Part shown: positions 923 to 44,315 of the stretch, one piece after another
Layout: each line of letters starts with the position of its first letter
Numbering within the stretch: position 1 is the stretch's first letter
Origin: Nitrosomonas sp.
Lineage (GTDB): Bacteria > Pseudomonadota > Gammaproteobacteria > Burkholderiales > Nitrosomonadaceae
Direction: 5' to 3'
Assembly (NCBI GenBank): GCA_031316255.1
Contig: JALDQW010000001.1
Span: 682,001-746,000 of the forward strand
DNA: 64,000 nt
Translations under genes and position numbers: made by a program
Notes under the pieces: model-generated
Told to the model about the DNA's origin: nothing
Seen by the model: the letters and a program-made list of their open reading frames with translations, nothing else
Database searches by the model: none

Positions 923-941
923 AGTGTAAAATTTTTCGACA
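923..941 (-). promoter_or_regulatory. Upstream activator element, identical to the one at 44203-44221
   Basis: The minus strand reads TGTCGAAAAATTTTACACT, a partly dyad-symmetric AT-rich element. The same 19 bases recur at 44203-44221 in the same orientation relative to another sigma-54 site. Here 81 nt separate it from the -24 box; at the other locus 79 nt do. From family knowledge, PEP-CTERM genes in several proteobacteria are controlled by the PrsK/PrsR two-component system with RpoN. That this element binds PrsR is inference. Confidence 0.7.
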
Positions 942-1048
942 TATTTGCTTTCTTTGAATAATTGCTTTATGTCCAAAACCGCATTTTAATACAATACGCG
1001 ACTGAATGCATTAATCATTATTTTCCCGGATAACACGGAAAACATCGT

Positions 1049-1483
1049 ATGGATGAATCACTCCCGCACCTTCTCGCACTGGTTATCACAGCAAACGGCG
1101 CACCGATAGCACTCCGGTATCTGGCCGGTCATAAAATGGCTTATCCGGTAGATTTTCACATTTATTTTATTGATCAAAAACGGCTTTTCGGAAACACCAA
1201 GACCTGGCGCGGGCTGATGGCTTCATTGTTGCTAACCTGTCCGGCAGCGGTGTTGCTCGATTACGATTTAAAAACCGGTTTTTTAATTGCAGCCGGGGCC
1301 ATGAGTGGCGATCTGCTGTCAAGCTTTATTAAGCGGCGGCTGAATATGCGGCCAAGCTCAATGGCGCCGCTTCTGGATCAAGTCCCGGAATCGTTAATTC
1401 CGGCTTTACTTGTGATGCATAGTTTTCATTTAACGGCACATACCATCATTTATCTGGTCATTCTATTTTTTGTGCTTGAATAA
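1049..1483 (+). CDS. CarS/DUF46-like CDP-alcohol synthase family membrane protein
   Basis: 144 residues with about four hydrophobic segments. The motif series (ANGAPI near 16, DQKRLFGNTKTWRG near 45-58, GAMSGDLLSSFIKRRL near 84-99, LDQVPE near 109) matches the CarS/CdsA-related family that transfers CMP to a lipid phosphate. Archaeal CarS makes CDP-archaeol; the bacterial homologues have no settled function. The length fits this short family. It stands alone, 241 bp ahead of the HxlR gene. Family membership is fairly secure from the motifs; the substrate is unknown. Confidence 0.7.
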   Translation: MDESLPHLLALVITANGAPIALRYLAGHKMAYPVDFHIYFIDQKRLFGNTKTWRGLMASLLLTCPAAVLLDYDLKTGFLIAAGAMSGDLLSSFIKRRLNMRPSSMAPLLDQVPESLIPALLVMHSFHLTAHTIIYLVILFFVLE

Positions 1484-1688
1484 TACCTGCTCTCCGTATT
1501 GTTCTATGAATTGGGAATACGTAAAAAACCTTATTAGAAATACACAGCATCTCTCTCAATAGCCTGCGGTACCGTTTTGGCGATAACCGAATCCACCGGA
1601 TATGATTGAATTCTTTATGCTGAAAATGTTTACTACGAGTATATCCTGCTTTAAAAAATTGACTGACACAGCACCCGTTGCTTTTGAT

Positions 1689-1718
1689 TTGCAAGCCGAA
1701 AAATAAATACGCTATACT
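1689..1718 (+). promoter_or_regulatory. Sigma-70-type promoter of the HxlR gene
   Basis: TTGCAA (1689-1694), an 18-bp spacer and TATACT (1713-1718). The expected transcription start, about seven bases after the -10 box, falls on or next to the ATG at 1725, and no Shine-Dalgarno sequence fits between. The mRNA may therefore be leaderless. Confidence 0.45.
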
Positions 1719-1724
1719 AATACT

Positions 1725-2099
1725 ATGAAAGATTCTGGAAAAATGATACAGATTGACCGCATGCGGTCGCCTTGTCCGATTGCCAATGCACTGGAAATTG
1801 TGGGCGACAAATGGACATTACTGATCTTGCGCGACGCATTTTCAGGAAAAAATATTTACAGTGAATTTCAGGCTTCACCCGAGGGTATCCCGACCAATAT
1901 ACTGGCGGATCGGTTAAAGCGACTGGTTTCATTCGATATCCTGAAAAAAACACCCTACCAGCAACACCCGGTGCGCTTTTCCTACCATCTGACAGAGAAA
2001 GGACGCTCACTTGCCCCGCTACTCAAGGAAATATCGAACTGGGGTTTAACCCATATTTCGCAAACCGATGCAAAAATAAAAATAGATTGGCAAGCTTAA
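1725..2099 (+). CDS. HxlR-family winged-helix transcriptional regulator
   Basis: 124 residues with the HxlR signature: CPIANALEIVGDKWTLLILRDAFSGKNIYSEF near residues 16-48, then a winged helix with ILADRLKRLVSFDILKK and the wing YHLTEKGRSLAPLL. The single Cys before the helix is common in redox- or electrophile-sensing members, but a sensing role is inference. It lies 34 bp upstream of the broken TauE/SafE gene in the same direction, so that transporter is its likely target. These regulators usually act as dimers and often autoregulate. Confidence 0.9.
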   Translation: MKDSGKMIQIDRMRSPCPIANALEIVGDKWTLLILRDAFSGKNIYSEFQASPEGIPTNILADRLKRLVSFDILKKTPYQQHPVRFSYHLTEKGRSLAPLLKEISNWGLTHISQTDAKIKIDWQA

Positions 2100-2133
2100 T
2101 CCCGCAACACCAGGCTTTAGCAAAACCATAACC

Positions 2134-2907
2134 ATGGATTTTTTCATTGTCTGCCTGGCCACAATGGTTGCCTCTGCACTGACATTGTTTTCCGGTTTCG
2201 GGCTTGGCACACTGCTGATGCCTGTAATCGCGCTATTCTTCCCGCTCGAAACCGCGATTGCCATGACGGCCATGGTTCATCTGGCAAATAATTTTTTTAA
2301 AACCGGTCTGCTCGGAAAACATGCCGACCGGCAAGTACTCCTGCGTTTTGGTCTACCCGCGATTATCGCTGCTTTTGCGGGCGCCACGCTCATGACCTGG
2401 CTAAGCGATATCCGCCCCATCTATGAATACCAGGCTTTTGGCAACGCACTTCAGGTTTCGCCACTTAAACTGGTTATCGGACTACTGATTATTTTCTTCG
2501 TCACGATCGAATTATCGCCACGCTTCTCAAAAATCGTTTTAGACCGCAAATACCTGTCTGTTGGCGGCATGATCAGCGGTTTTTTCGGCGGACTATCCGG
2601 CCATCAGGGTGCATTCCGAAGTATGTTTTTGCTAAAAGCCGGCCTCAGTAAAGAAACATTTATCGCCACCGGAATTGCTATTGCCGTTATGGTTGATTTG
2701 TCACGCATGGTGATTTATGGTCTGGACATTTCAATACAACAGAAGCAACTTGAATAGCCGCTGATTACCGCCGCCACGTTCTCTGCCTTCGCTGGCGCAT
2801 ATTTCGGTTCCAAACTACTCAAAAAGGTAACTATTCGCTTTGTTCAGATTATGGTGGCTATTTTACTCGCAACAGTTTCATTGGGCCTGATATCGGGAGT
2901 ATTGTAG
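2134..2907 (+). pseudogene. TauE/SafE-family transporter interrupted by an in-frame TAG
   Basis: The first 207 codons encode a TauE/SafE (DUF81) permease with repeated membrane helices and the GSMISGFFGGLSGHQGAF-type glycine-rich loop (here GGMISGFFGGLSGHQGAF). A TAG at 2755-2757 stops it, yet the same frame stays open for 49 more codons (2758-2904) to a TAG at 2905-2907. Those codons encode a normal family C-terminus (AFAGAYFGSKLLKKV, then a last hydrophobic helix LLATVSLGLISGVL). The intact product would be 257 residues, the usual length. Without the tail it lacks its last one or two helices. Family members export sulfite, sulfonates or other organic anions. A point mutation and a sequencing error are both possible. 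Confidence 0.8.
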
Positions 2908-2972
2908 GATACGCCACCTTTATCCCGTACGCTCAACTGGTACCGGAATTCAAATATTGACGGCAGGCTTTA

Positions 2973-3124
2973 GGGCACCTCTAAAAATTCAGAGTTTTAA
3001 ACAAGACGAGGCCAGTTTTTGTTGATAGCAAAAAATATTCACGCAGCATAGGGTTGATAGGTAAGGAGATATTTTCTGTGAACAACAAAGTATTGTGACA
3101 AAATATGGATATTTAGCGATGCCC
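2973..3124. repeat. 152-bp MITE-like element with TTTA target duplication
   Basis: The ends are inverted repeats: the left 19 bases (GGGCACCTCTAAAAATTCA) match the complement of the right end (GGGCATCGCTAAATATCCA) at 15 of 19 positions. TTTA directly flanks both sides (2969-2972 and 3125-3128). There is no coding capacity. This fits a non-autonomous element moved in trans by some transposase; its parent is not recognisable here. It lies 65 bp beyond the end of the broken TauE/SafE gene. Confidence 0.5.
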
Positions 3125-3205
3125 TTTAATCAATTTTACTATCTTTATAAGTAGTCAACCCTGAAAAAAGATATTCTGAAAGATCTTAAGCACAATAATT
3201 TCAAC

Positions 3206-4632
3206 CAGGGATTCTTTATCTTGTCTGCGAACTTTTTCTTCAGGAATTTCCGGCGGCAATGCTTATTTTTGCCTTATGTTTTGCTGCAAAAAACAGCCAA
3301 AAAATGGCCAACAGCCATTGTTTCAGATTCCAGGCGCAAGCAGCCATCAGCAGGTTGATCTGATCACCGATGGCGCCTTTCAAATAGTTTCTTGCCATTC
3401 GATAGTCCGATTTCAAGTGGCCGATAATGGGCTCAATAGCTGCACGCCTTCTGCATTGTTTACGCTTCTTGTCTCTCTGGTAGCGACTGTCTCGTTTGAG
3501 TGCTTTTCCCGGTAGAATGATTGTTGTTCCATTGACTTCACTTTTGCCACGGTAGCCGCGATCACACACTGCTTGTTTGGCTGTTTTGCCACGCGATGTT
3601 TCAACATGCTGAAGTATTTCCGGCAACGTATGGCTGTCATGCAGGTTTTGTTCATGGTTGACCACGCCGACGATGATATTGTTTCGCGCCGTACAGGCGA
3701 TTGATGCCTTGCTGCCATATTCGTATTGTTTATGGTCTTTTCCTTTGGCAACACAGTAGACCTGTGGTTCATGCAGGGAATAGATTTTGTTTGTGTCTTT
3801 GGGTTGCTGTTTCAAAATACGCTCATACAGCAGAAAATCCTGTTGGTAGCGTTCAAACAAGCAGTACTGCGGCAGCTTCCTTCTGAGCTCCCGTATCAAA
3901 ATGCCCGCAATGGTTCGCAACCGTTTCAGCGCACGCTTGGCCTTGGCTCTTTTCTTGGCATGGCGAAAATGCCGAATATCCAGGCGCAGGGATTTGACTT
4001 CCTTGACGAAGGTGCGCCGCTGGGGAATGCCATGCGCTTTGGCAAGCTTGTTCAAGCGATTGATGATTTTGATTGCAAGCTTGCTGTCTGTCGGATAGGT
4101 GATGTTCTTTTCCTGTACTGTGGTGTCAATATGAACCGCATCTTCCTGCGCCGCTTTGCCATGCAAACCAACGCTCATCCGGAATATCCGTTCAACACCT
4201 TCAGCGCCAATCCGCTTGCGAAAATGAACCAGCTCCGTGCTGTGGCAAGGCAATCTGCGTTGGAATTCTTTCATGCCGCAAAAAGCCTGGTAGTACGGAT
4301 TGCGCTTCCACTGCAATACTACCGCTTCATCGCTCAAGTTCTCCAGTTGCTTCAGGATCAACAATCCTACCATCAGGCGAATGGGTTTGCTGGGCGCGCC
4401 GATGCCTTCGGTGTAATGAACGCTAAACGCTTCGTCAAACACGTGCCAGGGGATAACGGTTGATAGTTTGAGCAACGGATCGGAAGGATCAAGTTGTAAT
4501 AACAGGTCAGTTTCAAACAAACTGGGTTGATGAAAAGTTTTGCTGGGTGTGAGCATCTATAAATCACCATTTCGACCAGAAACAAGTGCTTATTTTAGCA
4601 TTTTCTGGTCGTTTTGAACAGCAAAAACCCTG
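3206..4632 (-). mobile_element. IS5-type insertion sequence (boundaries approximate)
   Basis: Proposed ends are CAGGGATTCTT at 3206 and the inverted CAGGGTTTTTG ending at 4632 (8 of 11 matched), giving 1427 bp around one transposase. No clear target duplication is visible at these ends, so they are tentative. A 10-bp hairpin, CGACCAGAAA / TTTCTGGTCG (4573-4611), lies just upstream of the transposase start and could shield it from read-through expression. The right end is interrupted by a second element. Confidence 0.55.
3240..4556 (-). CDS. IS5-family DDE transposase
   Basis: 438 residues and apparently intact. The N-terminal domain (about 1-130) is the DUF772-type region (PSKPIRLMVGLLILKQLENLSDE). 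The catalytic acidic residues can be placed as D in HIDTTVQEKNI (about 143), D in AVCDRGYRG (about 338) and E in AAIEPIIGHLKSDYRM (about 374). The region between is rich in Arg and Lys. The length and the IEPIIGHLK...RNYLKG signature fit the longer IS5-family transposases. Antisense open frames across it are shadows. Confidence 0.9.
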   Translation of the reverse strand: MLTPSKTFHQPSLFETDLLLQLDPSDPLLKLSTVIPWHVFDEAFSVHYTEGIGAPSKPIRLMVGLLILKQLENLSDEAVVLQWKRNPYYQAFCGMKEFQRRLPCHSTELVHFRKRIGAEGVERIFRMSVGLHGKAAQEDAVHIDTTVQEKNITYPTDSKLAIKIINRLNKLAKAHGIPQRRTFVKEVKSLRLDIRHFRHAKKRAKAKRALKRLRTIAGILIRELRRKLPQYCLFERYQQDFLLYERILKQQPKDTNKIYSLHEPQVYCVAKGKDHKQYEYGSKASIACTARNNIIVGVVNHEQNLHDSHTLPEILQHVETSRGKTAKQAVCDRGYRGKSEVNGTTIILPGKALKRDSRYQRDKKRKQCRRRAAIEPIIGHLKSDYRMARNYLKGAIGDQINLLMAACAWNLKQWLLAIFWLFFAAKHKAKISIAAGNS

Positions 4633-4637
4633 ATAAT
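4617..4637. repeat. Left copy of the 21-bp target-site duplication
   Basis: These 21 bases, containing GCAAAAACCCTG, recur exactly at 5993-6013. The pair brackets the IS1202-like element. The duplicated sequence spans the proposed right end of the IS5-type element (CCCTG at 4628-4632), which shows the second insertion came later. Confidence 0.85.
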
Positions 4638-5992: not shown

Positions 5993-6013
5993 AACAGCAA
6001 AAACCCTGATAAT
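5993..6013. repeat. Right copy of the 21-bp target-site duplication
   Basis: Exact repeat of 4617-4637. The chromosome resumes after it, about 150 bp downstream of the stop codon of the SGNH hydrolase gene, so the insertions did not break that gene. Confidence 0.85.
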
Positions 6014-6073
6014 CGCTATTAATATCATGCACTTGAGGATATTTTAAGGGCCGACTAAGTAAACGCAGCCCGC

Positions 6074-6102
6074 TGTCGAGGGCGCAAACCACACCCTCGA
6101 CA
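6074..6102 (-). terminator. Hairpin downstream of the SGNH hydrolase gene
   Basis: Perfect 9-bp inverted repeat TGTCGAGGG (6074-6082) / CCCTCGACA (6094-6102) with an 11-nt loop, 63 bp past the stop codon at 6165. There is no T-run on the minus strand, so a Rho-independent role is uncertain. Confidence 0.4.
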
Positions 6103-6164
6103 ATGAAAACATTTTTCGAGTTGTTCTCAGGCTGTCATTCCAAAATAATAAAGCAGATCGATTC

Positions 6165-9593: not shown

Positions 9594-11720
9594 TTAGATG
9601 GCCATCCCATTATGCCGCAACAAGGCTTCCATTTGTGGTTCACGCCCACGAAATGCGACAAATGATTCCATTGCCGGACGGCTGCCGCCCGTAGCGAGAA
9701 TTTCCTGCCTGAAACGTGAGCCGGTGCCGTTATCCACCACACCGGAATTGCTTTTTTCAGCGTTTTCTTCAAACAGGCCGTAGGCGTCTGCCGATAACAC
9801 TTCCGCCCACTTATAGCTGTAATAGCCCGCCGCATAACCACCACCAAAGATATGCGCAAAACTGTTGGGAAAACGATTATAGGCGGGCGGGGTAATGACG
9901 GCAACTTCCTTGCGCACATCGTCGAGCAACTGCAGAACGGTTTTATCGCCATGCGGATCAAAATCATAGTGCAGATGCATATCGAACAAGGCAAATTCAA
10001 TCTGCCGCACCATTTGCATGCCGCTCTGGAAATTCTTGGCCGCAAGCATTTTATCGAATAATTCTTTCGGTAAGGATTCGCCGGTGTTGACATGCCGTGA
10101 CATTTCAGCAAGCACATCCCATTCCCAACAGAAATTTTCCATAAACTGACTGGGCAACTCCACTGCGTCCCATTCCACACCGCCGATACCCGACACATTC
10201 AAATCGTCAACCTGGGTCAGCAGGTGATGCAAGCCGTGCCCGAACTCATGAAACAGCACAATCACTTCATTGTGGGTAAACAACGCCGGCCTGTGCTGGC
10301 CATCAATAGATACGGGCGGAGAAAAATTACAGGTCAGATAGGCTACCGGTAGTTGTATTGTACTGCCGTGTTGTGCACATTCCACGCGACGACGGGCAAT
10401 GGCGCCGTCCATCCATGCTCCGCCGCGTTTGCTCGCACGCGCGTATAAATCAACATAAAACCGTCCGATCAATACGCCAGCAACATCAAAAATATCGAAC
10501 AGTTTGACGTCCGGGTGCCAGTATTGAATTTTATGCTCAAGCTCAATCGAATCTGCCGGAACAATGGAGATACCATAGAGTTTTTCAACCAGTTTAAACA
10601 TGCCCGGCAAAACCTTATCTTCCGGGAAATACTGTTTGACTTCCTGATCGGAAAAGGCATAACGCGCCTGCCGCAATTTCTCGCTGGCATACGCAATATC
10701 CCAAGCCTCGAGCTTTGGCAGATTCAATTCCTTTGCCGCAAATTGTTGCAATTCCTGCAAATCCCTTTCAGCGTATGGTTTGGCCTTTGCCGCCAGTTCT
10801 CTGAGAAAATCCAGCACCTGGCTCGGCGATGACGCCATTTTGGTCGCCAGTGAAACTTCCGCGTAATTTTGATAACCCAGCAGTTTTGCCTCTTCCTCAC
10901 GCAACGCAAGAATGTCATTGATCAATGGCATATTATCCCAACGCTTTTCTCCAGATTGATCATCGGACATATTGAATTCACTGGCACGCGTATAATACGC
11001 ATGATACATCTTTTCACGTAACGCGCGATTATCGGCGTATTGCTGTATGGGCAGATAAGATGGCATATGGAGGGTAAATTTCCAGCCATTCCTGGATTCT
11101 TTCTCGGCCAATTGTCTGGCTGAGTGCAACACATCTTCAGGAATACCTGAAACTTCGTCAGTTTTCTCGACCAGCAATGAAAACGCGTTAGTTGCATCGA
11201 GTAAATTATCATTGAATTTTGAAGACAATTCCGACAAGGCTTCTTGAATCTTGAGAAAACGCTGCTTCTTCTCAGGCGGCAATTCTGCGCCGCCCAGACG
11301 GAAATCCCTAAGTTCGTTGTCGACAATTTTCTTACGCGCAGGACTGAGCATATCAAATTCGTTACTTGCCCGTAATTGCTTGAATTTTTCGAATAACTGC
11401 TGGTCCTGTGACAGTTCCGCACAAAACTGAGTAATCAGGGGCAGGTTTTTGTTGTACATTTCGCGCAATTCGGGTGTATTCATGACCGCATTCAAGTGAG
11501 AGATCTGTCCCCAGGCACGCGACAGGCGTTCATTGGCATCGACCATGGGCTGAACAAATGACTGCCAGGTCGGCAGTTGATCATCGTGGCGGATTTTGTC
11601 GATAATCGCCTTGTTTTCGTTGAGCAGCGCTTCAATTGCGGGCGTGATATGCGCGGTATTTATTTCATCAAAATGGGGTAGTCCTGAAAAATCAAGTAAC
11701 GGATTCGATAGCGTATTCAT
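9594..11720 (-). CDS. prlC: Oligopeptidase A (M3 family zinc metallopeptidase)
   Basis: 708 residues from the ATG at 11720. An in-frame ATG at 11771 would overlap the preceding gene and lacks homology-like sequence, so the shorter form is preferred. The zinc site is HEFGHGLHH (His 491, Glu 492, His 495) with the third ligand in AVELPSQF (about Glu 521). Substrate-loop residues are in HIFGGGYAAGYYSYKW. It degrades short cytosolic peptides, including signal-peptide remnants. The length matches E. coli PrlC (about 680). It is the last gene of the pyr-region run, 20 bp after the dihydroorotase homologue. Confidence 0.93.
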   Translation of the reverse strand: MNTLSNPLLDFSGLPHFDEINTAHITPAIEALLNENKAIIDKIRHDDQLPTWQSFVQPMVDANERLSRAWGQISHLNAVMNTPELREMYNKNLPLITQFCAELSQDQQLFEKFKQLRASNEFDMLSPARKKIVDNELRDFRLGGAELPPEKKQRFLKIQEALSELSSKFNDNLLDATNAFSLLVEKTDEVSGIPEDVLHSARQLAEKESRNGWKFTLHMPSYLPIQQYADNRALREKMYHAYYTRASEFNMSDDQSGEKRWDNMPLINDILALREEEAKLLGYQNYAEVSLATKMASSPSQVLDFLRELAAKAKPYAERDLQELQQFAAKELNLPKLEAWDIAYASEKLRQARYAFSDQEVKQYFPEDKVLPGMFKLVEKLYGISIVPADSIELEHKIQYWHPDVKLFDIFDVAGVLIGRFYVDLYARASKRGGAWMDGAIARRRVECAQHGSTIQLPVAYLTCNFSPPVSIDGQHRPALFTHNEVIVLFHEFGHGLHHLLTQVDDLNVSGIGGVEWDAVELPSQFMENFCWEWDVLAEMSRHVNTGESLPKELFDKMLAAKNFQSGMQMVRQIEFALFDMHLHYDFDPHGDKTVLQLLDDVRKEVAVITPPAYNRFPNSFAHIFGGGYAAGYYSYKWAEVLSADAYGLFEENAEKSNSGVVDNGTGSRFRQEILATGGSRPAMESFVAFRGREPQMEALLRHNGMAI

Positions 11721-11739
11721 AAATAGACAACTCTTTTTG

Positions 11740-13020
11740 TTAATGTTCAGATTCGTAGACGATGTGACCATTGACCAGGGTATATCGGACTTTCCCGGGC
11801 ACTTCCATACCGAGAAACGGGGTATTTTTTCCCTGGCTCAACAGTGTGGTTGCAGATACTTTCCAATATATGTCAGGGTCAAAAACACACAAATCAGCGG
11901 CTCCGCCCGGCGACAAATACCCGGCATCAATATTCAATACCTTTGCCGGTTCAGAAGTAATTGCAGCCAGAACGTCCACAAGCGGACGTTTCATTTCCAT
12001 GCCGTATTTTAATGTCAGCGGCAACAGCAATTCTACACCGGTGGCCCCGACTTCCGACTGGCCAAAAGGCAGCAACTTGGCGTCTTCATCAACCGGCGCA
12101 TGATCCGAGCAAACCGCATTGATCGTTCCATCCAGCAACCCTTTACGCAGGGCGTCGCGGTCACTGAAACTTCTCAATGGCGGCATCATGTGACAATTGG
12201 AATCAAAATAACCGATATCCATATCCGACAAATGAAGATGATTGATGGTCACATCACAGGTAATCGACATGCCCTGCTGCCTCGCTGCACGTACCAATGC
12301 AAGTCCTTCAGCACTGGAAATTCGGCACAGATGTATATGGACGTCAATTTCCTTTGCCAGCAGGATGATATTCGAAATGGCTATTGTTTCCGCACAAACC
12401 GGTATAGCGGGCAAACCCAGCCGCATTGCCATTTCTCCGTCATGCGCCACACCGTCATAAGCCAGATTTCTGTCTTGCGGACTGAGCCATACACTAAAGC
12501 CAAATGTCGATGCATATTGCATCGCCTGCATCAACACTCTCAAGTCGGTAAGAAAACCGTTCGGCTGACCAAACACAATGCAACCGGCATCGTGCAGTTC
12601 GGCCATTTCGGTCAAGTGTTCACCGTTTAATCCTTGGGTCAACGCGCCAATAGGATAAACATGCGCCTGATTAAGAATCCTCGCGCGATGCTTGAGCATT
12701 TCCACAAGTCCAGGCTCATCAAGCGGCGGATCTGTATCCGGTGGGCAGGCAAAGCTGGTCACACCCCCGGAAATTGTGGCATTCATTTCTGATTCCAGCG
12801 TAGCTTTATATTCCAGGCCCGGTTCGCGCAAACGCACCGATAAATCAATCAAACCCGGACAAACCACCAAACCACCTGCATCCAGAACATGGTCAGGGTG
12901 AAATGCAGCGGGCAAACTGCCAATTGCCAGTATTTTACCGTTTGCAATATAGACATCCTGAATGGCATCGATACCGCTTTTCGGATCCACCAACCGGCCA
13001 TTTCTGATATGAATATTCAT
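11740..13020 (-). CDS. pyrX: Dihydroorotase-like protein lacking zinc ligands (PyrC'/PyrX type)
   Basis: 426 residues, amidohydrolase fold of class I dihydroorotase. The metal site is not conserved: the usual DxHxHxREPG reads DLSVRLREPG; the AHCED-type His region reads WLSPQDRNLAYDG; the HVCHVS region reads HIHLCRISSAEG. The DHAP motif near the C-terminus (CSDHAPVDED) remains. From knowledge of Pseudomonas, such inactive homologues assemble with aspartate carbamoyltransferase as a structural partner, and true dihydroorotase is encoded elsewhere. Its position directly after pyrB (15 bp) supports that role here. Non-catalytic status is inferred from the missing residues. Confidence 0.85.
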   Translation of the reverse strand: MNIHIRNGRLVDPKSGIDAIQDVYIANGKILAIGSLPAAFHPDHVLDAGGLVVCPGLIDLSVRLREPGLEYKATLESEMNATISGGVTSFACPPDTDPPLDEPGLVEMLKHRARILNQAHVYPIGALTQGLNGEHLTEMAELHDAGCIVFGQPNGFLTDLRVLMQAMQYASTFGFSVWLSPQDRNLAYDGVAHDGEMAMRLGLPAIPVCAETIAISNIILLAKEIDVHIHLCRISSAEGLALVRAARQQGMSITCDVTINHLHLSDMDIGYFDSNCHMMPPLRSFSDRDALRKGLLDGTINAVCSDHAPVDEDAKLLPFGQSEVGATGVELLLPLTLKYGMEMKRPLVDVLAAITSEPAKVLNIDAGYLSPGGAADLCVFDPDIYWKVSATTLLSQGKNTPFLGMEVPGKVRYTLVNGHIVYESEH

Positions 13021-13035
13021 TTGAATGCGATGCCC

Positions 13036-13995
13036 CTACACCTGATGACCTGCCAGAATGGACATCACCGCCATTCGCACCGCGATGCCGTATGTAACCT
13101 GCGGCAAAATAACCGACTGATTGCCATCGGCGACCATCGAATCAATCTCCACCCCGCGATTCATCGGACCGGGATGCATTACAATCGCATCGGGTTTCGC
13201 CAACCTCAATTTTTCCGGTGTCAGCCCATAATTTTTGAAATACTCTTCAGAACTGGGCAAATTCGCACCCTGCATACGCTCTTTCTGCAAGCGTAGCATC
13301 ATCAACACGTCGATATCGCGTAACCCGGCGTTCATATCATGAAAAACATGCACACCCAGACGCTCCACTTTGCTGGGCAATAAAGTTTTCGGCGCGATTA
13401 CGCGGACTTCCGGAACACCCAATGTCGTCAACGCATGGATCTGGGAACGCGCCACTCTTGAATGCAGAATATCGCCGACAATCGCAATCTTCAGATTATG
13501 AAATTCCTTTTTATAACGGCGAATGGTAAACATATCGAGCAGCGCCTGCGTTGGGTGTGCATGGCGGCCATCACCGGCATTAATGACATGAATACCCGGT
13601 TTTGCGTGTTTTGCGATCAAATGTGCGGCGCCACTTTGCACATGCCGAACCACGAACATATCCGCATTCATCGCGGAGAGATTGTCTACGGTATCGAGCA
13701 ATGTTTCACCCTTGGATTGGGCGGAAACAGCAATATTCAAATTAAAAACATCCGCTGACAGGCGCTTGGCGGCTATTTCAAAGGTTGTCCGGGTTCGGGT
13801 GCTGGGCTCAAAAAAAAGGTTGAAAATAGACTTGCCTCTTAACAACGGCACTTTTTTGACATCGCGTTCGGTAACGCCCACAAATGACTCGGCCGTATCC
13901 AGGATCTGCAATAAAATCGACGCAGGCAACCCTTCTGTTGTAAGCAAATGCTGCAGCACGCGGTTTTTGTCCAACTGCGGATTCCGGTTGATCAT
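13036..13995 (-). CDS. pyrB: Aspartate carbamoyltransferase catalytic chain
   Basis: 319 residues. It makes carbamoyl-aspartate in pyrimidine synthesis. The carbamoyl-phosphate site [12 protein letters not shown] (about 62-73) and the downstream HPTQALLD and [10 protein letters not shown] motifs are intact. The ATG overlaps the pyrR stop by 4 bp, showing translational coupling. With no pyrI regulatory gene nearby and a PyrX-like partner downstream, a dodecameric PyrB6-PyrX6 type enzyme is likely. Confidence 0.97.
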
Positions 13996-14549
13996 GCCGG
14001 CAAATCTTCCTTCCCGTTTGCAATTACTTTTTTATCTTTCAGGCTCAGACTGAATCTCCCGTTATTATCCCGATTAAAAACCAGAATCTTTTCTTTGGGC
14101 AACCGCAACTCGGCACCGGTAAACTGCGCGTAAATGGGCAATTCTCTGTCACCGCGATCGACCAGAGCCGCCAGGCTTATCGAAGCCGGTCTACCGTAAT
14201 CAAATAACTCGTTGATTGCCGCCCGAATGGTTCGTCCGGTTTGCAGTACGTCATCAACCAAAAGAATATGTGCGCCATCAACAGCAAAAGGAATATCTGA
14301 TGGTTTCACTTGTGCATGCAGTCCGATTTTGTCAAAATCATCGCGATAAAACGAAACGCTGAGCAAACCGAGCGGCGCCATGGGCTGTGTTGCCGAAAGT
14401 TCGCGATGCAGGCGCTCGGCCAACCACACGCCGCCCGTATGGATGCCTACCAGTGCAAAACGTTTTTCGCTGTCAGCTTTAATGTGTTCTACCAGCTGTT
14501 TGTATAAAATTTCCGCGTCAGGCAGTGGGATATCGCACATGTCGTTCAT
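13992..14549 (-). CDS. pyrR: PyrR-family uracil phosphoribosyltransferase/regulator
   Basis: 185 residues from ATG 14549; a longer frame reaching 14642 has no family-like sequence. The PRPP-binding loop [15 protein letters not shown] (about 98-112) and the [13 protein letters not shown] segment are intact. In Gram-positive bacteria PyrR controls pyr mRNA by attenuation; in Gram-negative operons of this layout the role is less clear and may be uracil salvage. It overlaps ruvX by 32 bp and pyrB by 4 bp. Confidence 0.93.
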
Positions 14550-15018
14550 CGAAAAAAGACTGAAGTATATGCTGTGCGGCGATTTGATCCAAGAACTGTT
14601 TCTGTTTCCTACCCGAAACACCCGCCTGGCGCAGCGCCGCACCAGCGGTTTTGGAGGTATAACGCTCGTCCACCAGCAGTACTTTTAAATTAAAACGGCC
14701 GGCAAGACGCCGTGCAAACCGTTGACTTAAACGGGTCAATTCATGTTCAGAACCATCCACATGACTGGGCAACCCAACCACCAAAAAAACCGGATCCCAG
14801 TTTTCGATCAACACGCTGATCTGGGAAAAGCGCTGGTCATTTTTTTCACTTGCAATGGTCGTCAACGGATGCGCCAATCCTATAACCGTATCTCCGACGG
14901 CAACCCCAATTCGCTTTTGACCGAAATCAAAGGCAAGAACCGTGCCTTCAATCGCAAGACCATTTGCTTGATTTGTTGCGGAAGCCAGGTCATTTTGACG
15001 TGTAGATTGATCAGTCAT
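14518..15018 (-). CDS. ruvX: RuvX/YqgF putative pre-16S rRNA nuclease
   Basis: 166 residues with an RNase H-like fold: the first strand holds VLAFDFGQKRIGVAVGD (about 28-44, catalytic Asp) and LLVDERYTSKTA (about 117-128) the second acidic site. Enterobacterial YqgF completes the 5' end of 16S rRNA; the older Holliday-junction resolvase label is disputed. The N-terminal 25 residues are longer than usual, so the true start may be internal. It sits between yqgE and pyrR, a common arrangement in beta- and gammaproteobacteria. Confidence 0.92.
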   Translation of the reverse strand: MTDQSTRQNDLASATNQANGLAIEGTVLAFDFGQKRIGVAVGDTVIGLAHPLTTIASEKNDQRFSQISVLIENWDPVFLVVGLPSHVDGSEHELTRLSQRFARRLAGRFNLKVLLVDERYTSKTAGAALRQAGVSGRKQKQFLDQIAAQHILQSFFDERHVRYPTA

Positions 15019-15051
15019 TTCACCAAGAATTTCGACCGGATTGACAGCCTA

Positions 15052-15612
15052 TCAAGCATGGCCAACGTCATTTGACAATCGGGTGTAATCGACGCCCAGT
15101 AACGCCATCGCTGCCGGCAGCCGCTCTTCGGAAGGCATGTCGAATATGATATCGTTGGTAGCAGGCACAGACAACCACGCATTCTGAGCCATTTCATGTT
15201 CAATCTGGCCGGCAGCCCAGCCCGCATAACCCAGCGCCACCAGAATTTGGTCCGGTCCTTCTGCGTTCGCGATGGCTTTTAATATATCCAGCGAAGTCGT
15301 AAGCCCCAGTTGCTGATTGATGGTCAATGTGGATTGCCATTGACCAATCGGCTGATGCAACACAAAACCACAATCAACCTGAACCGGCCCCCCAAACAAC
15401 ACCGTTGACTCATTACGCAATGTTTCTCCTGCAGCGATATCCAGTTGTTTAAACAAACCGCCCAGCGACAAATCCATCGGCCGGTTAATGACCAGTCCTA
15501 ATGCCCCCTGCTCATTATGTTCACAGATATAAGTCACCGTTTTGGTAAAAAAGGAATTCTCCATTGCCGGCATAGCGATCAAGAAATGATGCGTCAGATT
15601 GATTTTTTCCAT
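15052..15612 (-). CDS. yqgE: YqgE/AlgH family protein
   Basis: 186 residues. It begins with the family signature [28 protein letters not shown] and contains [10 protein letters not shown] and [16 protein letters not shown]0301 members (AlgH in Pseudomonas) are cytosolic and of unclear biochemical function. The yqgE-ruvX-pyrR-pyrB order is widely conserved. It lies 33 bp upstream of ruvX. Confidence 0.93.
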
Positions 15613-15676
15613 GGCGAATTCATTTTTTCGTCATCAGATACCTGCGATCAGCAGTCCATCCCGGCGGCCCATGCCG

Positions 15677-16303
15677 TCAAACCCAATATGCCGTTTGAGT
15701 CATTACTTTGGAGCTAAGTTTCATTGCAAATTTAACCGGTAAAGGGAGTTCGGCGCCTCCTTGAGATAATGCCATGGTCGCATGACAAGCTTCATCAATC
15801 TGCATCTGAGCAACAATGGCACGGCTTTTCACATCATTTTGCGGCAAACGCTGCAAATGTCCCGTCAGATGATCCCCTACCTGTTTCTCGGTCTCGGCCA
15901 AAAAACCCAGGTTCCATTTATCGCCCATAAATCCGGCAAGCATACCAATTGCAAAAGAACCGCCATACCACAGAGGATTCAACAGGCTCTTTCGACCACC
16001 CAGTTCTTCAATGCGCCGCTCGGTCCATGCCAGATGTTCTGTCTCTTCCCGCGCTGCCTGTACGAGTTTCTGCTGCACCATTTCATTGCGCGCAGTCAGG
16101 CCCTGCCCCTGATACAGGGCCTGTGCGCAAACCTCGCCGACATGGTTGATACGCATGAGTGCAGCGGACAAATCTTTTTCCGAAACAGTCAAATCAGGAT
16201 CCGGCAGGTCGCTGCCCGGAACAGGCCTGGCCGTCTGCGCCGGTGTGAAAAGCGTTCGCAATGCGCTATCAAAACCAATAATCAATTTGTCAAAATTTAT
16301 CAT
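15677..16303 (-). CDS. coq7: Demethoxyubiquinone hydroxylase (Coq7)
   Basis: 208 residues, diiron monooxygenase catalysing the last hydroxylation in ubiquinone synthesis. The diiron ligands are visible: E in [21 protein letters not shown] ([11 protein letters not shown]), E in [17 protein letters not shown] and DEACH ([10 protein letters not shown]). One hydrophobic stretch ([15 protein letters not shown]) probably dips into the membrane. Length is normal. It lies 64 bp upstream of yqgE. Confidence 0.93.
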
Positions 16304-16349
16304 AGTCGTTTTTTGGATCGTAAAAATAACTCGTGTTCACTACAATACT

Positions 16350-17702
16350 TTACTGCATTCCCATTTGACGCGCCAGCAATGTAACCGGATGCAACACTTC
16401 GATATCGATACCGATTTCACGTAATCGCCCCGCAATATGCATTGCACATCCCACATTTGAGGTCACCAACAATTGCGCACCACTTTGAATTATTGCTTGT
16501 ATTTTATCATCAAGCAACCTGTCTGCTAATTCTGGCTGCCGGATAAAATATGTACCCGCAGCGCCACAACATTGATCATTATCCGCCAAAACAACCACCT
16601 GCGCACCCGGAATAAAATGCAGCAATTGATACGGATAATCCTGATCACCCAAAACATGGCGCAAGCTGCAAGGATCGTGGATCGCTATTTTTTTATCCAA
16701 AGGCAAAATGGGCACATCGCTCCAGCATTTTGCAGTCATCAGAAATTTACTGATATCCATGACTTCCGGAAACGTTTCGCACTCCGTACTGACCGTTTTA
16801 TCCTGCGTACCCGCCATATTGTATTCAGTCAGTTGTACACCGCAACCCGAAGCAAGACTGATGACCGCGAGCAAATCCGGTTCTCCGAAAGCCTGCATGT
16901 TTATCCGCTTCAACTGCTCCGCCTTATCGGCATCACCCGCATGCTGATGCAACGCGCCGCAGCAGGTCTGACTTGCGGGCAAACTAACGCCATATCCAAG
17001 ACGATTCAGAACAAAAATCCCAGCATTCAACGTGGCGGCATCGGCCAAACGCGCAATACACCCCAGAAACAACCCGACCTTGCCTTTTTCTGCTCCGACA
17101 GCCGGATATACTGCACGCCAAGTTAGTCTAAAACTGTTTTCTCCGCCTGAATAAGGAAACACAATTGGAGGCAGTTGCATTAACAGTTTATTCACATCGT
17201 ATCGTTTCCAGAAACTGCTTTTCTTCAGCCAGTTCACCGAATTCAACCAACGCAACAATCCGATTTTCTGAAACAGATAAACCAGCCAGCGCAAACGATC
17301 CAGTCGCGCCGGCCGGGCAACCTGTGCTGCCAGCAACTTCAAAACTGGCAGCTGCCCCTGTTGCGCTTCACCATCTGCTTTATTCTGACGCAAATTGAAT
17401 TGAACCATTTTGCGCGCCTCATCGATAAGCTGTCCGTATGCCACTTCATTTGGACAGACCGACTCACAGGCACGACAGGTTAAACAACGATCCAAATGCG
17501 CTACGGCTTTCTCATTGAGCGGAATGCGGCCGCTTACAACGCCATTCATAATGGCTATCCGCCCACGCGGAGAATCCGCCTCTGACCCCAGTAAACGATA
17601 AGTCGGGCAGTGCGGCAGACAAAGGCCGCAGGAAACACAGCGATTGGTTTCTTCGAGCAGAAATTTTTCTGAATACCCGGATGATAAATGATCGAAATCC
17701 AC
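16350..17702 (-). CDS. glcF: GlcF-like iron-sulfur subunit of a glycolate/lactate-type oxidase
   Basis: 450 residues. Two N-terminal 4Fe-4S motifs, CVSCGLCLPHCPTY (about 22-35) and CLTCRACESVCPN (about 72-84), are followed by two cysteine-rich domains of the CCG type (SQTCCGALHQHAGD near 248 and DNQCCGAAGTYF near 376). This is the layout of GlcF, which passes electrons from the flavin subunit GlcD to quinone. No glcD or glcE is adjacent, so the partner enzyme must be elsewhere and another related oxidase is possible. The gene starts at 17702 and is divergent from the K+ channel gene. Confidence 0.8.
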   Translation of the reverse strand: MDFDHLSSGYSEKFLLEETNRCVSCGLCLPHCPTYRLLGSEADSPRGRIAIMNGVVSGRIPLNEKAVAHLDRCLTCRACESVCPNEVAYGQLIDEARKMVQFNLRQNKADGEAQQGQLPVLKLLAAQVARPARLDRLRWLVYLFQKIGLLRWLNSVNWLKKSSFWKRYDVNKLLMQLPPIVFPYSGGENSFRLTWRAVYPAVGAEKGKVGLFLGCIARLADAATLNAGIFVLNRLGYGVSLPASQTCCGALHQHAGDADKAEQLKRINMQAFGEPDLLAVISLASGCGVQLTEYNMAGTQDKTVSTECETFPEVMDISKFLMTAKCWSDVPILPLDKKIAIHDPCSLRHVLGDQDYPYQLLHFIPGAQVVVLADNDQCCGAAGTYFIRQPELADRLLDDKIQAIIQSGAQLLVTSNVGCAMHIAGRLREIGIDIEVLHPVTLLARQMGMQ

Positions 17703-17943
17703 GATAATTGATCGGCGTTTGGTTACACGATTAAGACAATTGTTCGAAAATTAAATTTAAAGATCTCTATTATTGATGCAATAAAATGAGGGAACCCTGT
17801 TCAACCAGAATAAACCACATTCTATCAAGTAATCCCACTTTGAATTCAAGCGTGCAAGTATCAAGAAGCACATCACTCGACAGCTACAAACTGCTAAACT
17901 TGACCCGGCAGCAACATAAATACTTCGATAAAAAACATGAATT

Positions 17944-18405
17944 ATGAATGAATATACTGAACACATACATGCTTTATTAATTTCGAGCGCCATCGTCATA
18001 TTTTGCGTAGTGTTGCATTATGAAGCGTTACGATTGCTAAGCCATTCTGTCGGCATACATGTGCATAAACGAATCGGCGTGCTGGTCGTCATGTTGGGTT
18101 TGTTGGCGGCACATGTCTTTGAAATTATCATTTTTGCCCTGGGCTATATGCTCTTGCAGCATCAGTTTGGATTAGGACATATTACCAATCTCGACGAAAA
18201 CAGTTTTATAGACTACATATACTATTCTTCAGTCGTATATACAACAGTCGGTTTCGGTGATTTGCTACCTGTCGGCGCCACACGTATGCTGAGCGCTGCC
18301 GAAGGTTTGGTAGGGCTGGCAATGATAACCTGGTCTGCTTCCTTTACTTTTCTCGCCATGAAACGCTTTTGGCCTCACCCTCTTGAGGAATTAGATTCTC
18401 GATAA
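17944..18405 (+). CDS. Small potassium channel protein
   Basis: 153 residues. Hydrophobic segments near 10-32 and 44-72 precede a pore loop with the selectivity filter TTVGFGD (about 101-107), then a last helix (about 112-138). TVGFGD is the K+ filter form common in ion-trans-2 channels. There is no regulatory RCK/TrkA domain, so gating is unknown. It would work as a tetramer in the inner membrane. The extra N-terminal helix makes three membrane segments rather than the minimal two. Confidence 0.8.
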   Translation: MNEYTEHIHALLISSAIVIFCVVLHYEALRLLSHSVGIHVHKRIGVLVVMLGLLAAHVFEIIIFALGYMLLQHQFGLGHITNLDENSFIDYIYYSSVVYTTVGFGDLLPVGATRMLSAAEGLVGLAMITWSASFTFLAMKRFWPHPLEELDSR

Positions 18406-37326: not shown

Positions 37327-37353
37327 TTTAATGAAAAAAATATAACTCGTCAA
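37325..37353 (-). promoter_or_regulatory. Promoter of the division and cell-wall cluster
   Basis: On the minus strand TTGACG (37348-37353), a 17-bp spacer and TAAAGT (37325-37330) form a sigma-70-type promoter 78 bp ahead of mraZ. Its -10 box overlaps the first MraZ-type repeat. Confidence 0.5.
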
Positions 37354-37996
37354 GTAAAATACAGATATTTTATTTATATGACAAAGACTTAATGATCGGA
37401 CATTTCGCGCCACTTATCCTGCAAAAAGATACAAAAAAATAGACAGATAGTCTGGTTTTTGAAAGTAACAACACAGGTTTTGGGAGAAACGTGATTAGAT
37501 TATTTTGCTGACAGGTAAAAAAGTGAATTTACCCCTGACAAATCACAACAAATGACGTTAAATGACGGGTGAATGTCTCAGAATGTACCTCAAAAATAGA
37601 TAAATTTGATCAATGGCCGTTCAATATAAGCCGGAAGATAATCTGGTGCCTTTACCCTTTAATCTTATAAAAAGTGCAACCTTGAATTAATAGCGGCTCG
37701 CAATTTTTCTCCATTGCAAATATGTGCATAGTATGAAATCATCTGTAACTCGATAAGGTCTAAGGTAAGTCAGCAGATCAAAAAGAACAAATCCAACATT
37801 AAAACACTTATTCTATGAAAATTATCCCACTAACCCTAACCGCTTATACTGTTACCCTTGCACCGATTGCTGCTTAACAGTTTTCCATGTCATTCGATAT
37901 AAAGATATAAAGGATTCAAGGCTTGTTTTTAATTCTTTTTATCAAATTTTATTCTTTTATAATTTATCCCGTCCCGGGACTAACAAGAATTCATAC
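37354..37996. other. AT-rich intergenic region between mraZ and czcC
   Basis: About 640 bp between divergent operons. It holds a 20-codon frame at 37815-37877 whose product (MKIIPLTLTAYTVTLAPIAA) looks like a bare signal peptide, a TATAAT box at 37958-37963 and a perfect palindrome GTCCCGGGAC at 37971-37980, 16 bp before czcC. No longer gene is seen. Confidence 0.4.
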
Positions 37997-39364: not shown

Positions 39365-39427
39365 CAAAATTTCAAGCTGAGGTGAGTAAAAAATTGTCGG
39401 ATCGATCTGGGAGCTAAGGAGAACATT

Positions 39428-40930: not shown

Positions 40931-41015
40931 CAGAGAGTGGGTACCAGATTGTGATAATAAATCTGGTGTTTTTTCTGTCAATTCAAATTTTTTAATCTGA
41001 TAGCGAGACAAGACC

Positions 41016-44000
41016 TTGTTCGAGCGTATTTTACAATTATCCATAGATTATCGCGGTCTGGTGATGGTGGCAGTGTTTGCCATGGCTTTGCTGGGTATTT
41101 ACAGCTACCAGAAGGTACCAATTGATGCGGTACCGGATATTACCAATGTTCAAGTACAGATTAATACCGAAGCGCCCGGTTATTCTCCGCTGGAAGCAGA
41201 ACAGCGGCTGACGTTTCCAATAGAAACCATCATGATGGGATTGCCAAATCTCGATTATACTCGCTCGCTGTCCCGTTATGGCTTGTCTCAGGTTACCGTG
41301 GTGTTTAAAGACGGCACCGATATTTATTTTGCGCGCCAGTTGGTCAGCCAGCGCATACAGGAAGTCAGGAACCGCCTTCCGGCTGGTATTGAACCGCGCA
41401 TGGGTCCGATTTCCACCGGGCTAGGCGAAATTTTTATGTGGACGGTGGACGCCAAACCCGGCGCAAAAAAACCGGATGGCACGTCATATACCACAACTGA
41501 TTTGCGTGAAATCCAGGACTGGATTATCCGGCCGCAATTACTGACCGTTCGTGGTGTAACCGAAGTCAATTCCGTCGGCGGTTATGTCAAGCAATTTCAT
41601 GTAACCCCCTATCCTGAGAAACTGATTTCACTTGGCCTGACCCTGCAGGATGTTGCGACAGCACTGGCGCGAAATAATATGAATATCGGCGCCGGTTATA
41701 TCGAAAGAAGAGGCGAGCAGTACCTTGTCAGAGTTCCCGGTCAGGTTACCAATCTGAACGAGATTGGTGAAATTATTCTGGGCAGCAGGCAAGGCGTGCC
41801 GATTCGTATCAAAGATGTTGCTGACGTTCTCATCGGCAAGGAATTACGTAATGGTGCCGCGACGCAAAACGGCAAGGAAGTTGTTTTGGGAACGGTACAT
41901 ATGTTGATTGGCGAAAACAGCCAAATCGTTTCCGAGACCGCCGCTGCCAAGCTGGAGGAGATTAATCGCAATTTGCCTGAAGGCATAGTGGCTACACCAG
42001 TATATAACCGTACGACGTTGGTCGACAAAACCATTCAAACGGTTGCCTCCAACTTGATCGAAGGTGCAATTCTGGTCATTGTGGTGCTGTTCCTGTTTCT
42101 TGGCAATTTCCGCGCAGCGTTGATTACTGCGCTGGTGATACCGCTTTCCATGTTGTTTACGTTGACCGGGATGGTGGCAAATGAAGTCAGCGCCAATCTG
42201 ATGAGTCTCGGTGCACTGGATTTCGGCATTATCGTCGATGGCGCCATTGTCATTATTGAAAATTGCATCCGCCATCTGGCCGAGGAGCAAAAAAGACTCG
42301 GCAGGCGATTGACGCTGACGGAACGCCTGGAAATAGTTTTCTCGGCCAGCAAGGAAACACGCAGAGCACTGTTATTCGGCCAATTGATTATCATGATCGT
42401 CTATATTCCGATATTTGCACTGTCGGGTGTGGAAGGCAAAATGTTTCATCCCATGGCGTTTACCGTGGTTACAGCGCTACTGGGAGCGATTATTCTTTCT
42501 ATTACTTTTGTTCCTGCTGCGGTTGCGCTTTTTCTGAGCGGCGACATCAGCGAAAAGGAAAGCAAAGTAGTCGTTCATTCCAAACAAATATATCTACCCA
42601 TGTTGAATTGGGTGTTACGCAACAAGGCATTAACGGTGACACTGGCAGTTACCATCATGGTGCTTTCCGGTTTGCTTGCAACCCGGCTGGGCAGTGAGTT
42701 TGTACCGAGTCTGAACGAAGGTGATATCGCCTTGCATGCGATACGAATTCCTGGCACCAGCCTGACAACTGCAATTGAGATGCAAAATGAGCTTGAAGAA
42801 AAAATCAAGACCTTTGCAGAAGTTAAAAGTGTTTTTTCCAAAATCGGTACCGCTGAAATCGCAACAGATCCCATGCCGCCAAGCGTGGCCGATATATTCA
42901 TTATTCTAAAAGATCAGGATGAATGGGAAGGTCCCTATAAAACCAAGGCTGAACTGATTGCTGCAATGGAAAAGGTGGTGAATGATGTGCCGGGCAACAA
43001 TTATGAATTCACACAGCCGATCCAGATGCGTTTTAACGAGTTGATATCCGGTGTGCGCGCCGATGTTGCCATCAAGGTATTTGGTGATAACATGGATGTC
43101 TTGCATGATGTCGGCGATAAAATTTTATCGGTGATCGAAAAAATACCGGGCGCAGCGGATGCAAAAATAGAGCAACTGACAGGCTTGCCCATGCTCTCAA
43201 TCCAGATGGATAGAGCCAAAATGGCGCGTTACGGATTGAATGTGGAAGATGTACAGAACGTTATTGCCATAGCCGTAGGTGGTATGTCGACCGGTCTGAT
43301 TTATGAAGGTGATCGGCGCTTCAATCTGGTTGTTCGCCTGCCGGAGCAAATGAGAGGCAGCATTGAAGCACTCAAACGCTTACCTGTTCAGTTGCCGAAT
43401 GCGGTATTAAATATACAACAAGGCCAGGTTGCGCCACCGGCTTACTTGACACTCGGTGATGTTGTCGACTTCAATGTCATTGAAGGTCCCAATCAGATCA
43501 GCCGCGAAAACGGAAAACGCCGTGTCGTAGTTAGCGCGAATGTCCGCGGAAGCGATTTGGGTACATTCGTGCATGAAGCACAATCGCGCATTGCTGAAGA
43601 AGTTAAAATTCCACCCGGTTACTGGATTGTTTGGGGTGGTCAATACGAGCAGCTTGTATCGGCCACAGAACGTTTGATGATTGTCGTGCCGGTAGCACTG
43701 GGTCTGATTTTTGTGCTGCTTTATTTGATGTTTGGAAATCTGCGTGATGGCCTGCTGGTTTTTACCGGCGTTCCATTTGCGCTTTCCGGCGGTATTCTGG
43801 CGCTCTGGTTGCGCGACATACCATTCTCGATTTCCGCCGCGGTTGGTTTTATTGCTCTGTCAGGTATAGCGGTACTGAATGGCCTGGTTCTGCTAACATT
43901 TATACGCAATCTCCGCAAAGAGGGTCACACGCTGGATGATGCTGTTAAGACCGGCGCATTGACACGACTTCGTCCCGTATTAATGACCGGTTTGACCGAT

Positions 44001-44186
44001 GCGATTGGATTTGTGCCGATGGCATTGGCAGTCACCATTGGCGCAGAAGTACAGCGGCCGCTTGCAACTGTTGTTATTGGCGGCATTTTAACTTCTACCG
44101 CTTTAACAATGTTGGTACTCCCCGTCTTGTATCACATCGTTTATCGAAAAAAGGAAATCAAATCCTCAGCGAAAACCCACATATAA
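41016..44186 (+). CDS. czcA: CzcA-like heavy-metal RND efflux pump
   Basis: 1056 residues from a TTG start, full length for an HME-RND transporter with 12 membrane helices and two large periplasmic loops. The proton-relay motif DFGIIVDGAIVIIE puts Asp 402, Asp 408 and Glu 415 at exactly the positions known to be essential in Cupriavidus CzcA, which points to divalent cations (Co, Zn, Cd) rather than Cu/Ag. Substrate assignment remains inference. No metal-sensing regulator lies next to the operon. Confidence 0.93.
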   Translation: MFERILQLSIDYRGLVMVAVFAMALLGIYSYQKVPIDAVPDITNVQVQINTEAPGYSPLEAEQRLTFPIETIMMGLPNLDYTRSLSRYGLSQVTVVFKDGTDIYFARQLVSQRIQEVRNRLPAGIEPRMGPISTGLGEIFMWTVDAKPGAKKPDGTSYTTTDLREIQDWIIRPQLLTVRGVTEVNSVGGYVKQFHVTPYPEKLISLGLTLQDVATALARNNMNIGAGYIERRGEQYLVRVPGQVTNLNEIGEIILGSRQGVPIRIKDVADVLIGKELRNGAATQNGKEVVLGTVHMLIGENSQIVSETAAAKLEEINRNLPEGIVATPVYNRTTLVDKTIQTVASNLIEGAILVIVVLFLFLGNFRAALITALVIPLSMLFTLTGMVANEVSANLMSLGALDFGIIVDGAIVIIENCIRHLAEEQKRLGRRLTLTERLEIVFSASKETRRALLFGQLIIMIVYIPIFALSGVEGKMFHPMAFTVVTALLGAIILSITFVPAAVALFLSGDISEKESKVVVHSKQIYLPMLNWVLRNKALTVTLAVTIMVLSGLLATRLGSEFVPSLNEGDIALHAIRIPGTSLTTAIEMQNELEEKIKTFAEVKSVFSKIGTAEIATDPMPPSVADIFIILKDQDEWEGPYKTKAELIAAMEKVVNDVPGNNYEFTQPIQMRFNELISGVRADVAIKVFGDNMDVLHDVGDKILSVIEKIPGAADAKIEQLTGLPMLSIQMDRAKMARYGLNVEDVQNVIAIAVGGMSTGLIYEGDRRFNLVVRLPEQMRGSIEALKRLPVQLPNAVLNIQQGQVAPPAYLTLGDVVDFNVIEGPNQISRENGKRRVVVSANVRGSDLGTFVHEAQSRIAEEVKIPPGYWIVWGGQYEQLVSATERLMIVVPVALGLIFVLLYLMFGNLRDGLLVFTGVPFALSGGILALWLRDIPFSISAAVGFIALSGIAVLNGLVLLTFIRNLRKEGHTLDDAVKTGALTRLRPVLMTGLTDAIGFVPMALAVTIGAEVQRPLATVVIGGILTSTALTMLVLPVLYHIVYRKKEIKSSAKTHI

Positions 44187-44202
44187 ATCACGTACAAATA
44201 AG

Positions 44203-44221
44203 TGTCGAAAAATTTTACACT
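44203..44221 (+). promoter_or_regulatory. Upstream activator element, identical to 923-941
   Basis: TGTCGAAAAATTTTACACT, the same 19 bases as ahead of the PEP-CTERM gene. It lies 79 nt before a sigma-54 site and 164 nt before the Tat-signal protein gene. Confidence 0.7.
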
Positions 44222-44300
44222 GACCGCAGGGTTTTTGTATTCAAATTTTCACCCTATGGTAACTAATTGTATTTAAATCATTAAAAACAAATTTATATTT

Positions 44301-44315
44301 TGGCCCAATATTTGC
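44301..44315 (+). promoter_or_regulatory. Sigma-54 promoter of the Tat protein/HPr-rel-A operon
   Basis: TGGCCC-AATAT-TTGC, with GG and GC ten bases apart as required for RpoN. One base differs from TGGCAC. Transcription would start near 44327, about 58 nt ahead of the ATG at 44385. Confidence 0.7.

Follow-up and report, generated by a model that had tools for sequence, protein, structure and literature searches.

The regulatory element closest to the one considered here is the PEP-CTERM box, described by Haft et al. (2006, PMC1569441) as a motif 1 ending in TTTACA that is followed by a spacer and by a sigma-54 motif 2. According to the relevant part of that paper, the spacer has a mean of 62.8 (SD 10.6, range 32–92), the box is predicted to be bound by PrsR, which was itself derived from the phylogenetic profile of the box, and further box sites are found ahead of genes that do not encode PEP-CTERM proteins (PMC1569441). 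A PEP-CTERM gene of Aquincola tertiaricarbonis, pepA, is transcribed in an RpoN1-dependent manner (PMC9850573). A further described system of relevance is the HPr-rel-A system of NCBIfam (TIGR04352, TIGR04353). In the open-licence PMC papers that were searched no function of the HPr-rel-A cassette was found, and nothing linked an HprK-related kinase to PEP-CTERM; membership of HPr-rel-A in the PrsR/PEP-CTERM regulon was likewise not found in print in these papers. The element is already known; what is new here, within the searches made, is HPr-rel-A as a target of the regulon and a helical rule for the spacing. The placement of the cassette under PrsR and RpoN would link it to a condition, matrix and floc formation, and to an exported Tat protein as its likely output. 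The spacing rule would sharpen predictions of PrsR targets across genomes and make it easier to tell real promoters from look-alikes.

The window analysed in this work, a 64-kb stretch of a Nitrosomonas sp. genome, contains two copies of the 19-mer TGTCGAAAAATTTTACACT, at 923-941 on the minus strand and at 44203-44221 on the plus strand. The initial annotation had claimed an identical 19-mer at these two loci, followed at both by an RpoN site at matching spacing. Both copies were recovered at the positions and on the strands that it gave, exact to the base, and so were the two −24/−12 sites, TGGCACGAGAATTGC at 827-841 (minus strand; 19.5 of 19.5 on our own scale) and TGGCCCAATATTTGC at 44301-44315 (plus strand), which lie 81 and 79 nt past the 19-mer, respectively. 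The 17-nt motif 1 ending in TTTACA, TGTCGAAAAATTTTACA, is present at both sites, and the distance from this 17-mer to the TGGC of the sigma-54 site, 83 and 81 nt, is within the published range of 32–92. Judged by its sequence, the 19-mer is not a new element but the published PEP-CTERM box. The likeness to the box and regulon of Haft et al. (PMC1569441) extends to the 17-nt motif ending in TTTACA, the spacer, the −24/−12 site, the intergenic position and a genome with both PrsR and PrsK; in the genome studied here PrsR (TIGR02915, 747 bits), PrsK (TIGR02916, 896 bits) and RpoN (TIGR02395, 489 bits) all score over their cut-offs. It differs in that one recurrent non-PEP-CTERM target is named here, and in that the spacer is quantised by the helical repeat, of which there is no mention in section 7 of that paper.

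The box at 923-941, an exact match and a predicted PrsR site, stands ahead of the gene of a 192-aa PEP-CTERM protein (112-690, minus strand; TIGR02595 PEP_CTERM, 25 bits against a cut-off of 16), whose match to the floc_PepA profile is weak (39.7 bits, under the cut-off of 80). This arrangement is like that of Aquincola pepA, a PEP-CTERM gene with a −24/−12 promoter and a predicted upstream enhancer, but the target in that system is a PEP-CTERM gene, and the HPr-rel-A cassette is not seen in the part of that work used here (PMC9850573). The box at 44203-44221, also an exact match and one kept in relatives, begins 16 nt past the stop of a CusA/CzcA-type RND gene on the same strand. No PEP-CTERM gene follows it; the first gene downstream encodes a Tat protein and opens the HPr-rel-A operon.

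We consider, with a probability of about 0.87, that both sites would be PrsR activator boxes for RpoN promoters, one belonging to a PEP-CTERM gene and one to the HPr-rel-A operon. PrsR would act as an NtrC-type response regulator, with the box as its upstream activator site; PrsK would switch PrsR, and phosphorylated PrsR would bind the box and contact the RNA polymerase with its sigma-54 over a short spacer, held so that both would stand on the same face of the DNA. The box at 923-941 would then drive the gene of a PEP-CTERM matrix protein, and that at 44203-44221 an operon for a Tat-exported protein, PqqD, HprK-related kinase A and an NTP_transf_5 protein. The initial annotation had proposed that the kinase/PqqD cassette would belong to the PEP-CTERM regulon under PrsK/PrsR and RpoN, and this proposal gains comparative support from the conservation of the box, the shared helical phase and the co-occurrence with PrsR. 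The regulon membership of the operon thus appears well supported by comparison, while PrsR binding and RpoN dependence are what we infer from it.

The first gene of the operon (44385-44864, plus strand, as are all four) encodes a 159-aa Tat-signal protein with the motif KRRKLLKG, the proposed substrate of the system, which has no match in Pfam or NCBIfam. It is followed by the PqqD-family protein of the HPr-rel-A system (44979-45254; TIGR04353, 59.6 bits against a cut-off of 35), HprK-related kinase A (45265-46173; TIGR04352, 345 bits against 200) and an NTP_transf_5 nucleotidyltransferase-like protein (46163-47278; PF14907, 170 bits against 31.2). As in the NCBIfam HPr-rel-A system (TIGR04352, TIGR04353), the kinase and the adjacent PqqD are both over the curated cut-offs; the present comparison adds the Tat protein as the first gene and the PrsR-type promoter. 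The predicted structure of the kinase has an HprK/PEPCK-type fold, with HprK matches from Foldseek only, the matches listed by the other structure comparison being all PEPCK; against Pfam the kinase has no match at E ≤ 0.001. Among the named loci (see below; best 80 of 120), an NTP_transf_5 homologue stands behind the kinase in 79 of 80, and a twin-arginine protein was called by script at the same position in most. One Tat protein, modelled from 10 sequences with a mean pLDDT of 69.7, has no match to a solved fold at E ≤ 0.001. In the loci L125–L179 the Tat-exported proteins encoded by the gene upstream of PqqD form a group that shares the pattern C..SG..SGN.S...SPGYW; for the members tried there is no model in Pfam or NCBIfam.

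The promoter of this operon is conserved in relatives. In a set of 61 genomes, consisting of this one and 60 relatives, a box with a sigma-54 site at 62–85 nt precedes the operon in 15 of the 16 genomes that have the full kinase (this one included), against 0 of 16 on the reverse strand, and the same 15 are positive under the thresholds used for the named loci. The sole exception, G041, has no box and site within 4 kb, and PrsR over the cut-off is missing from this genome alone among the 16. Named genomes were searched with an alignment of the kinase, and the best 80 of 120 loci were kept. The first profile scan, at a score of at least 20, found box and site in 37 of these 80 loci (controls: reverse 3, shuffle 1, downstream 4/79). 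With thresholds fixed by hand after the results of the earlier scan had been seen, the pair was found at −1600 to −600 of the kinase in 43 of 76 loci, against 0/76 on the reverse strand and 0.05 expected from mononucleotide shuffles; the four loci of the 80 with less than 1250 bp upstream (L159, L172, L175 and L178) were left out. Of 1764 other 1-kb segments taken from the same named loci, 10 were positive, and real promoters may be among them. The loci L116, L117 and L118 are the genomes G011, G020 and G035, so that three of the 43 named positives repeat three of the 15 relatives, and genome counts throughout this work are uncorrected for kinship. In four Nitrosomonas relatives (L085, L086, L087 and L089) the operon itself also contains a near-perfect box string, at −169 relative to the match of the kinase; it outscores the promoter box, which comes second, and no strong sigma-54 site follows it.

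PrsR and the kinase tend to occur together. Of the 61 genomes compared, 16 encode the full kinase, 19 a PrsR over the cut-off and 15 both, i.e. PrsR is present in 15 of 16 kinase genomes against 4 of 45 without the full kinase (Fisher 8e-10, uncorrected for kinship). When each of 24 other families of the order is represented by one genome, the same association gives a Fisher value of 0.008 for these 24 genomes. For the named loci (best 80 of 120), PrsR is over the cut-off in 74 of 79 kinase genomes (37/40 and 37/39), L160 having been left out of this search, and 11 of the 80 loci have, no more than 10 kb from the kinase, a PrsR with an identity of 55% or above. The two are 6–8 kb apart in the relatives G055 and G056. 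Where the named kinase genomes (best 80 of 120) have no PrsR, the box was found at the operon in none of four eligible (p 0.03, a weak result). One of these four, G084, has 4 canonical composites, and its PrsR is therefore probably just missing from the bin. In G034 PrsR (L197:9307-10667) is split around codon 343 into two parts that overlap and are read in different frames, with HPr-rel-A and the box kept; this split is either a sequencing error or a recent loss.

The conservation has clear exceptions. None of 12 eligible Sphingomonadales loci among the named loci (best 80 of 120; L180, L182–L184, L186 and L188–L194) has a box at the operon, and PrsR is present in 11 of the 12 genomes. The canonical composite is nearly absent from these genomes as a whole (3 matches, control 1), and the box itself may therefore be lost or changed there; the clade does not fit control of the cassette by PrsR through the box. 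Outside the Sphingomonads, the box is absent at 17 of 60 PrsR-positive named loci (best 80 of 120). When canonical composites with gaps of 50–80 only were counted in 20 non-Sphingomonad genomes that have no box at the operon, 12 had none, two had one and six had at least two, compared with 2 to 14 in six box-positive genomes taken as positives. Five genomes (G074, G077, G095, G097 and G109) have PrsR and at least two composites elsewhere, with none at the HPr-rel-A operon. Since this is the case in at least five PrsR genomes, control of the cassette differs between hosts and is not universal.

The genome to which the window belongs was scanned as one contig of 3,737,323 bp. The exact 17-mer core TGTCGN6TTTACA has 16 copies; the pattern with a gap of 5 (TGTCGN5TTTACA), used as a spacing control, has 4 exact copies, and all its matches, 69 (47 + 22) against a control of 36 + 44, are not the box. 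When one mismatch is tolerated, the genome shows no excess of the core over the control (118 against 112), so only near-exact copies are informative, and exact or composite patterns were used from then on. Taking a score of at least 16.5 of 19.5 on our own scale as a strong −24/−12 site, 11 of the 16 exact cores have one 51–118 nt downstream. The 16 cores fall into 13 intergenic regions, with one tandem pair and one group of three. Seven of these regions precede genes with PEP-CTERM signals or with C-terminal signals that we take to be of the VPLPA type (the C-termini being judged by eye), one precedes the HPr-rel-A operon and five precede other genes, whose products include a 296-aa SLT/Sel1 protein, a 1524-aa CBM96/Big_7 protein and a multicopper-oxidase-like pair. 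Counted from the genes, the PEP-CTERM profile at E ≤ 0.001 calls six loci in this genome, just three of which lie behind an exact core; at a fourth (3165030), the upstream DNA carries a core with one mismatch at a distance of about 0.8 kb. The initial annotation had named a clustering of such sites ahead of PEP-CTERM genes as support; 7 of 13 core regions have this position, and the view from the genes is weaker (3 of 6 loci called by the profile).

The remaining two of these five regions deserve a separate description. In L107:1967-9676 a tandem pair of boxes, with a sigma-54 site, stands about 700 bp upstream of the gene of a 2232-aa SdrD_B-repeat surface protein. At L110:8943-9282 three exact cores, two on the plus strand and one on the minus strand, are packed within 340 bp ahead of an open frame (9960-17999) of more than 2680 aa, a lower bound, as the frame continues past the stretch examined; the nearest sigma-54-like site (9307) is just 24 nt away from these cores, and another is found at 9629. 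Neither the window nor L110 has a match in Rfam at the gathering score.

The spacing between box and promoter follows a regular pattern. In 19 PrsR-bearing genomes, searched over a spacing range of 44–105 nt, the exact composite is present at 104 promoters (60 + 44; backwards control 0 and 1), and the spacings form classes near 52, 63, 74, 84, 96 and 105 nt, with few values between them (59 twice, 90, 91 and 100). The Rayleigh vector at a period of about 10.75 bp is 0.665 for these 104 promoters, a value never reached in 5000 trials in which each spacing was jittered by up to half a turn, and it is 0.52 when the Nitrosomonas genomes are collapsed to distinct values (46 in all). The p-values for the phasing are too small because orthologous promoters are not independent. 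The mean phase at 10.75 bp is 9.08 for the 92 other promoters (the 104 minus 12 HPr-rel-A promoters, hand-picked by coordinates) and 9.01 for the HPr-rel-A promoters of 43 named loci (best 80 of 120), and the two agree within 0.3 bp at the three periods tried. Both window promoters, whose distances to the 17-mer are 83 and 81 nt, belong to the 84-nt class. The nine composite spacings of this genome are 51, 62, 62, 63, 63, 64, 81, 81 and 83; when 108 and 118 are added, the 11 sites give p 0.054 at 10.5 bp and 0.012 at 11 bp, and the strongest of six periods tried is 9.5 bp (0.003). The phasing from this genome alone is not firm; the firm result is that from the 104 promoters of 19 genomes. Such quantised spacing fits an activator that stands on one face of the helix near the polymerase.

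The same data bear on several other explanations. The initial annotation had judged a chance origin of the pair unlikely, and the counts agree: no further match to the 19-mer at up to three mismatches exists in the window, shuffled sequences give a mean of 0.04 per window (100 shuffles), and the whole genome has 14 sites at up to three mismatches against 1 for the reversed pattern. That the two sites are merely AT-rich 19-mers, or a trivial repeat, which happen to lie ahead of sigma-54-like sites would accord with the lack of enrichment of the core at one mismatch, but we regard this explanation as having a negligible probability given these counts and the repeated presence of the box in front of this one operon, other genera included (43/76 loci against 0/76 on the reverse strand; best 80 of 120). 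It is improbable, to a much lesser degree, that the operon is mainly read through from the metal-efflux genes, or from a sigma-70 promoter, with the box being minor or vestigial. The RND gene, which has the same direction and a stop only 16 nt from the box, and the boxless PrsR-positive loci outside the Sphingomonads (17/60; best 80 of 120) speak for such transcription, whereas the retention of both box and helical phase in 43 named loci (best 80 of 120), mostly of other genera, argues against it.

The box could also be read by another NtrC-type activator, the co-occurrence with PrsR reflecting a shared biofilm ecology. Paralogues of this type are plentiful in the relatives (at least 6–24 matches per genome), the Sphingomonads have PrsR and no box at the operon, and G034 keeps its box despite a frameshifted PrsR. 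We nevertheless consider this unlikely, as Haft et al. obtained PrsR from the phylogenetic profile of the very same box (PMC1569441), and PrsR over the cut-off tracks the kinase across the 61 genomes. Control by PrsR through RpoN promoters is therefore the reading that we prefer for both window sites.

The role of the cassette is much less certain. Our guess is that PqqD may present the Tat protein to two enzymes, the kinase and the nucleotidyltransferase-like one, the product then being exported as a matrix component. Put more specifically, HPr-rel-A might be a PqqD-guided module in which the HprK-like kinase phosphorylates the Tat protein and NTP_transf_5 caps the phosphate with a nucleotide or a sugar before folded export beside the PEP-CTERM proteins; this is a tentative scheme, which we think more probably wrong than right. 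In the pseudomycoidin tailoring set, B1 is reportedly PqqD-like and K HprK-like. The cassette resembles this lasso set (B1, K, N) in that one precursor would be acted on by both a tailoring kinase and a protein annotated as a nucleotidyltransferase (PMC9266682). It differs from lasso-peptide biosynthesis in that the four-gene operon (44385-47278) has neither a B2 protease nor an asparagine-synthase-like cyclase, and in that the candidate substrate, as opposed to a lasso precursor, is a Tat protein of roughly 130–280 residues.

Phosphorylation of a Ser at the C-terminus, which is known from lasso precursors with a tailoring kinase, was considered and is not supported, there being no fixed C-terminal Ser in 57 candidate Tat proteins. 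Of these proteins, some of whose frames may be wrong, 25 of 57 have Ser or Thr among the last 3 residues (23.6 expected) and 34 of 57 among the last 5 (33.4 expected), with a mild excess, subject to the same uncertainty of frames, in the last 8 (50/57, 42.8 expected) and the last 10 (52/57, 46.7 expected). In the Sphingomonadales, most of the Tat proteins share a nearly invariant C-terminal tail, C(F/Y)ASLQMPRG.
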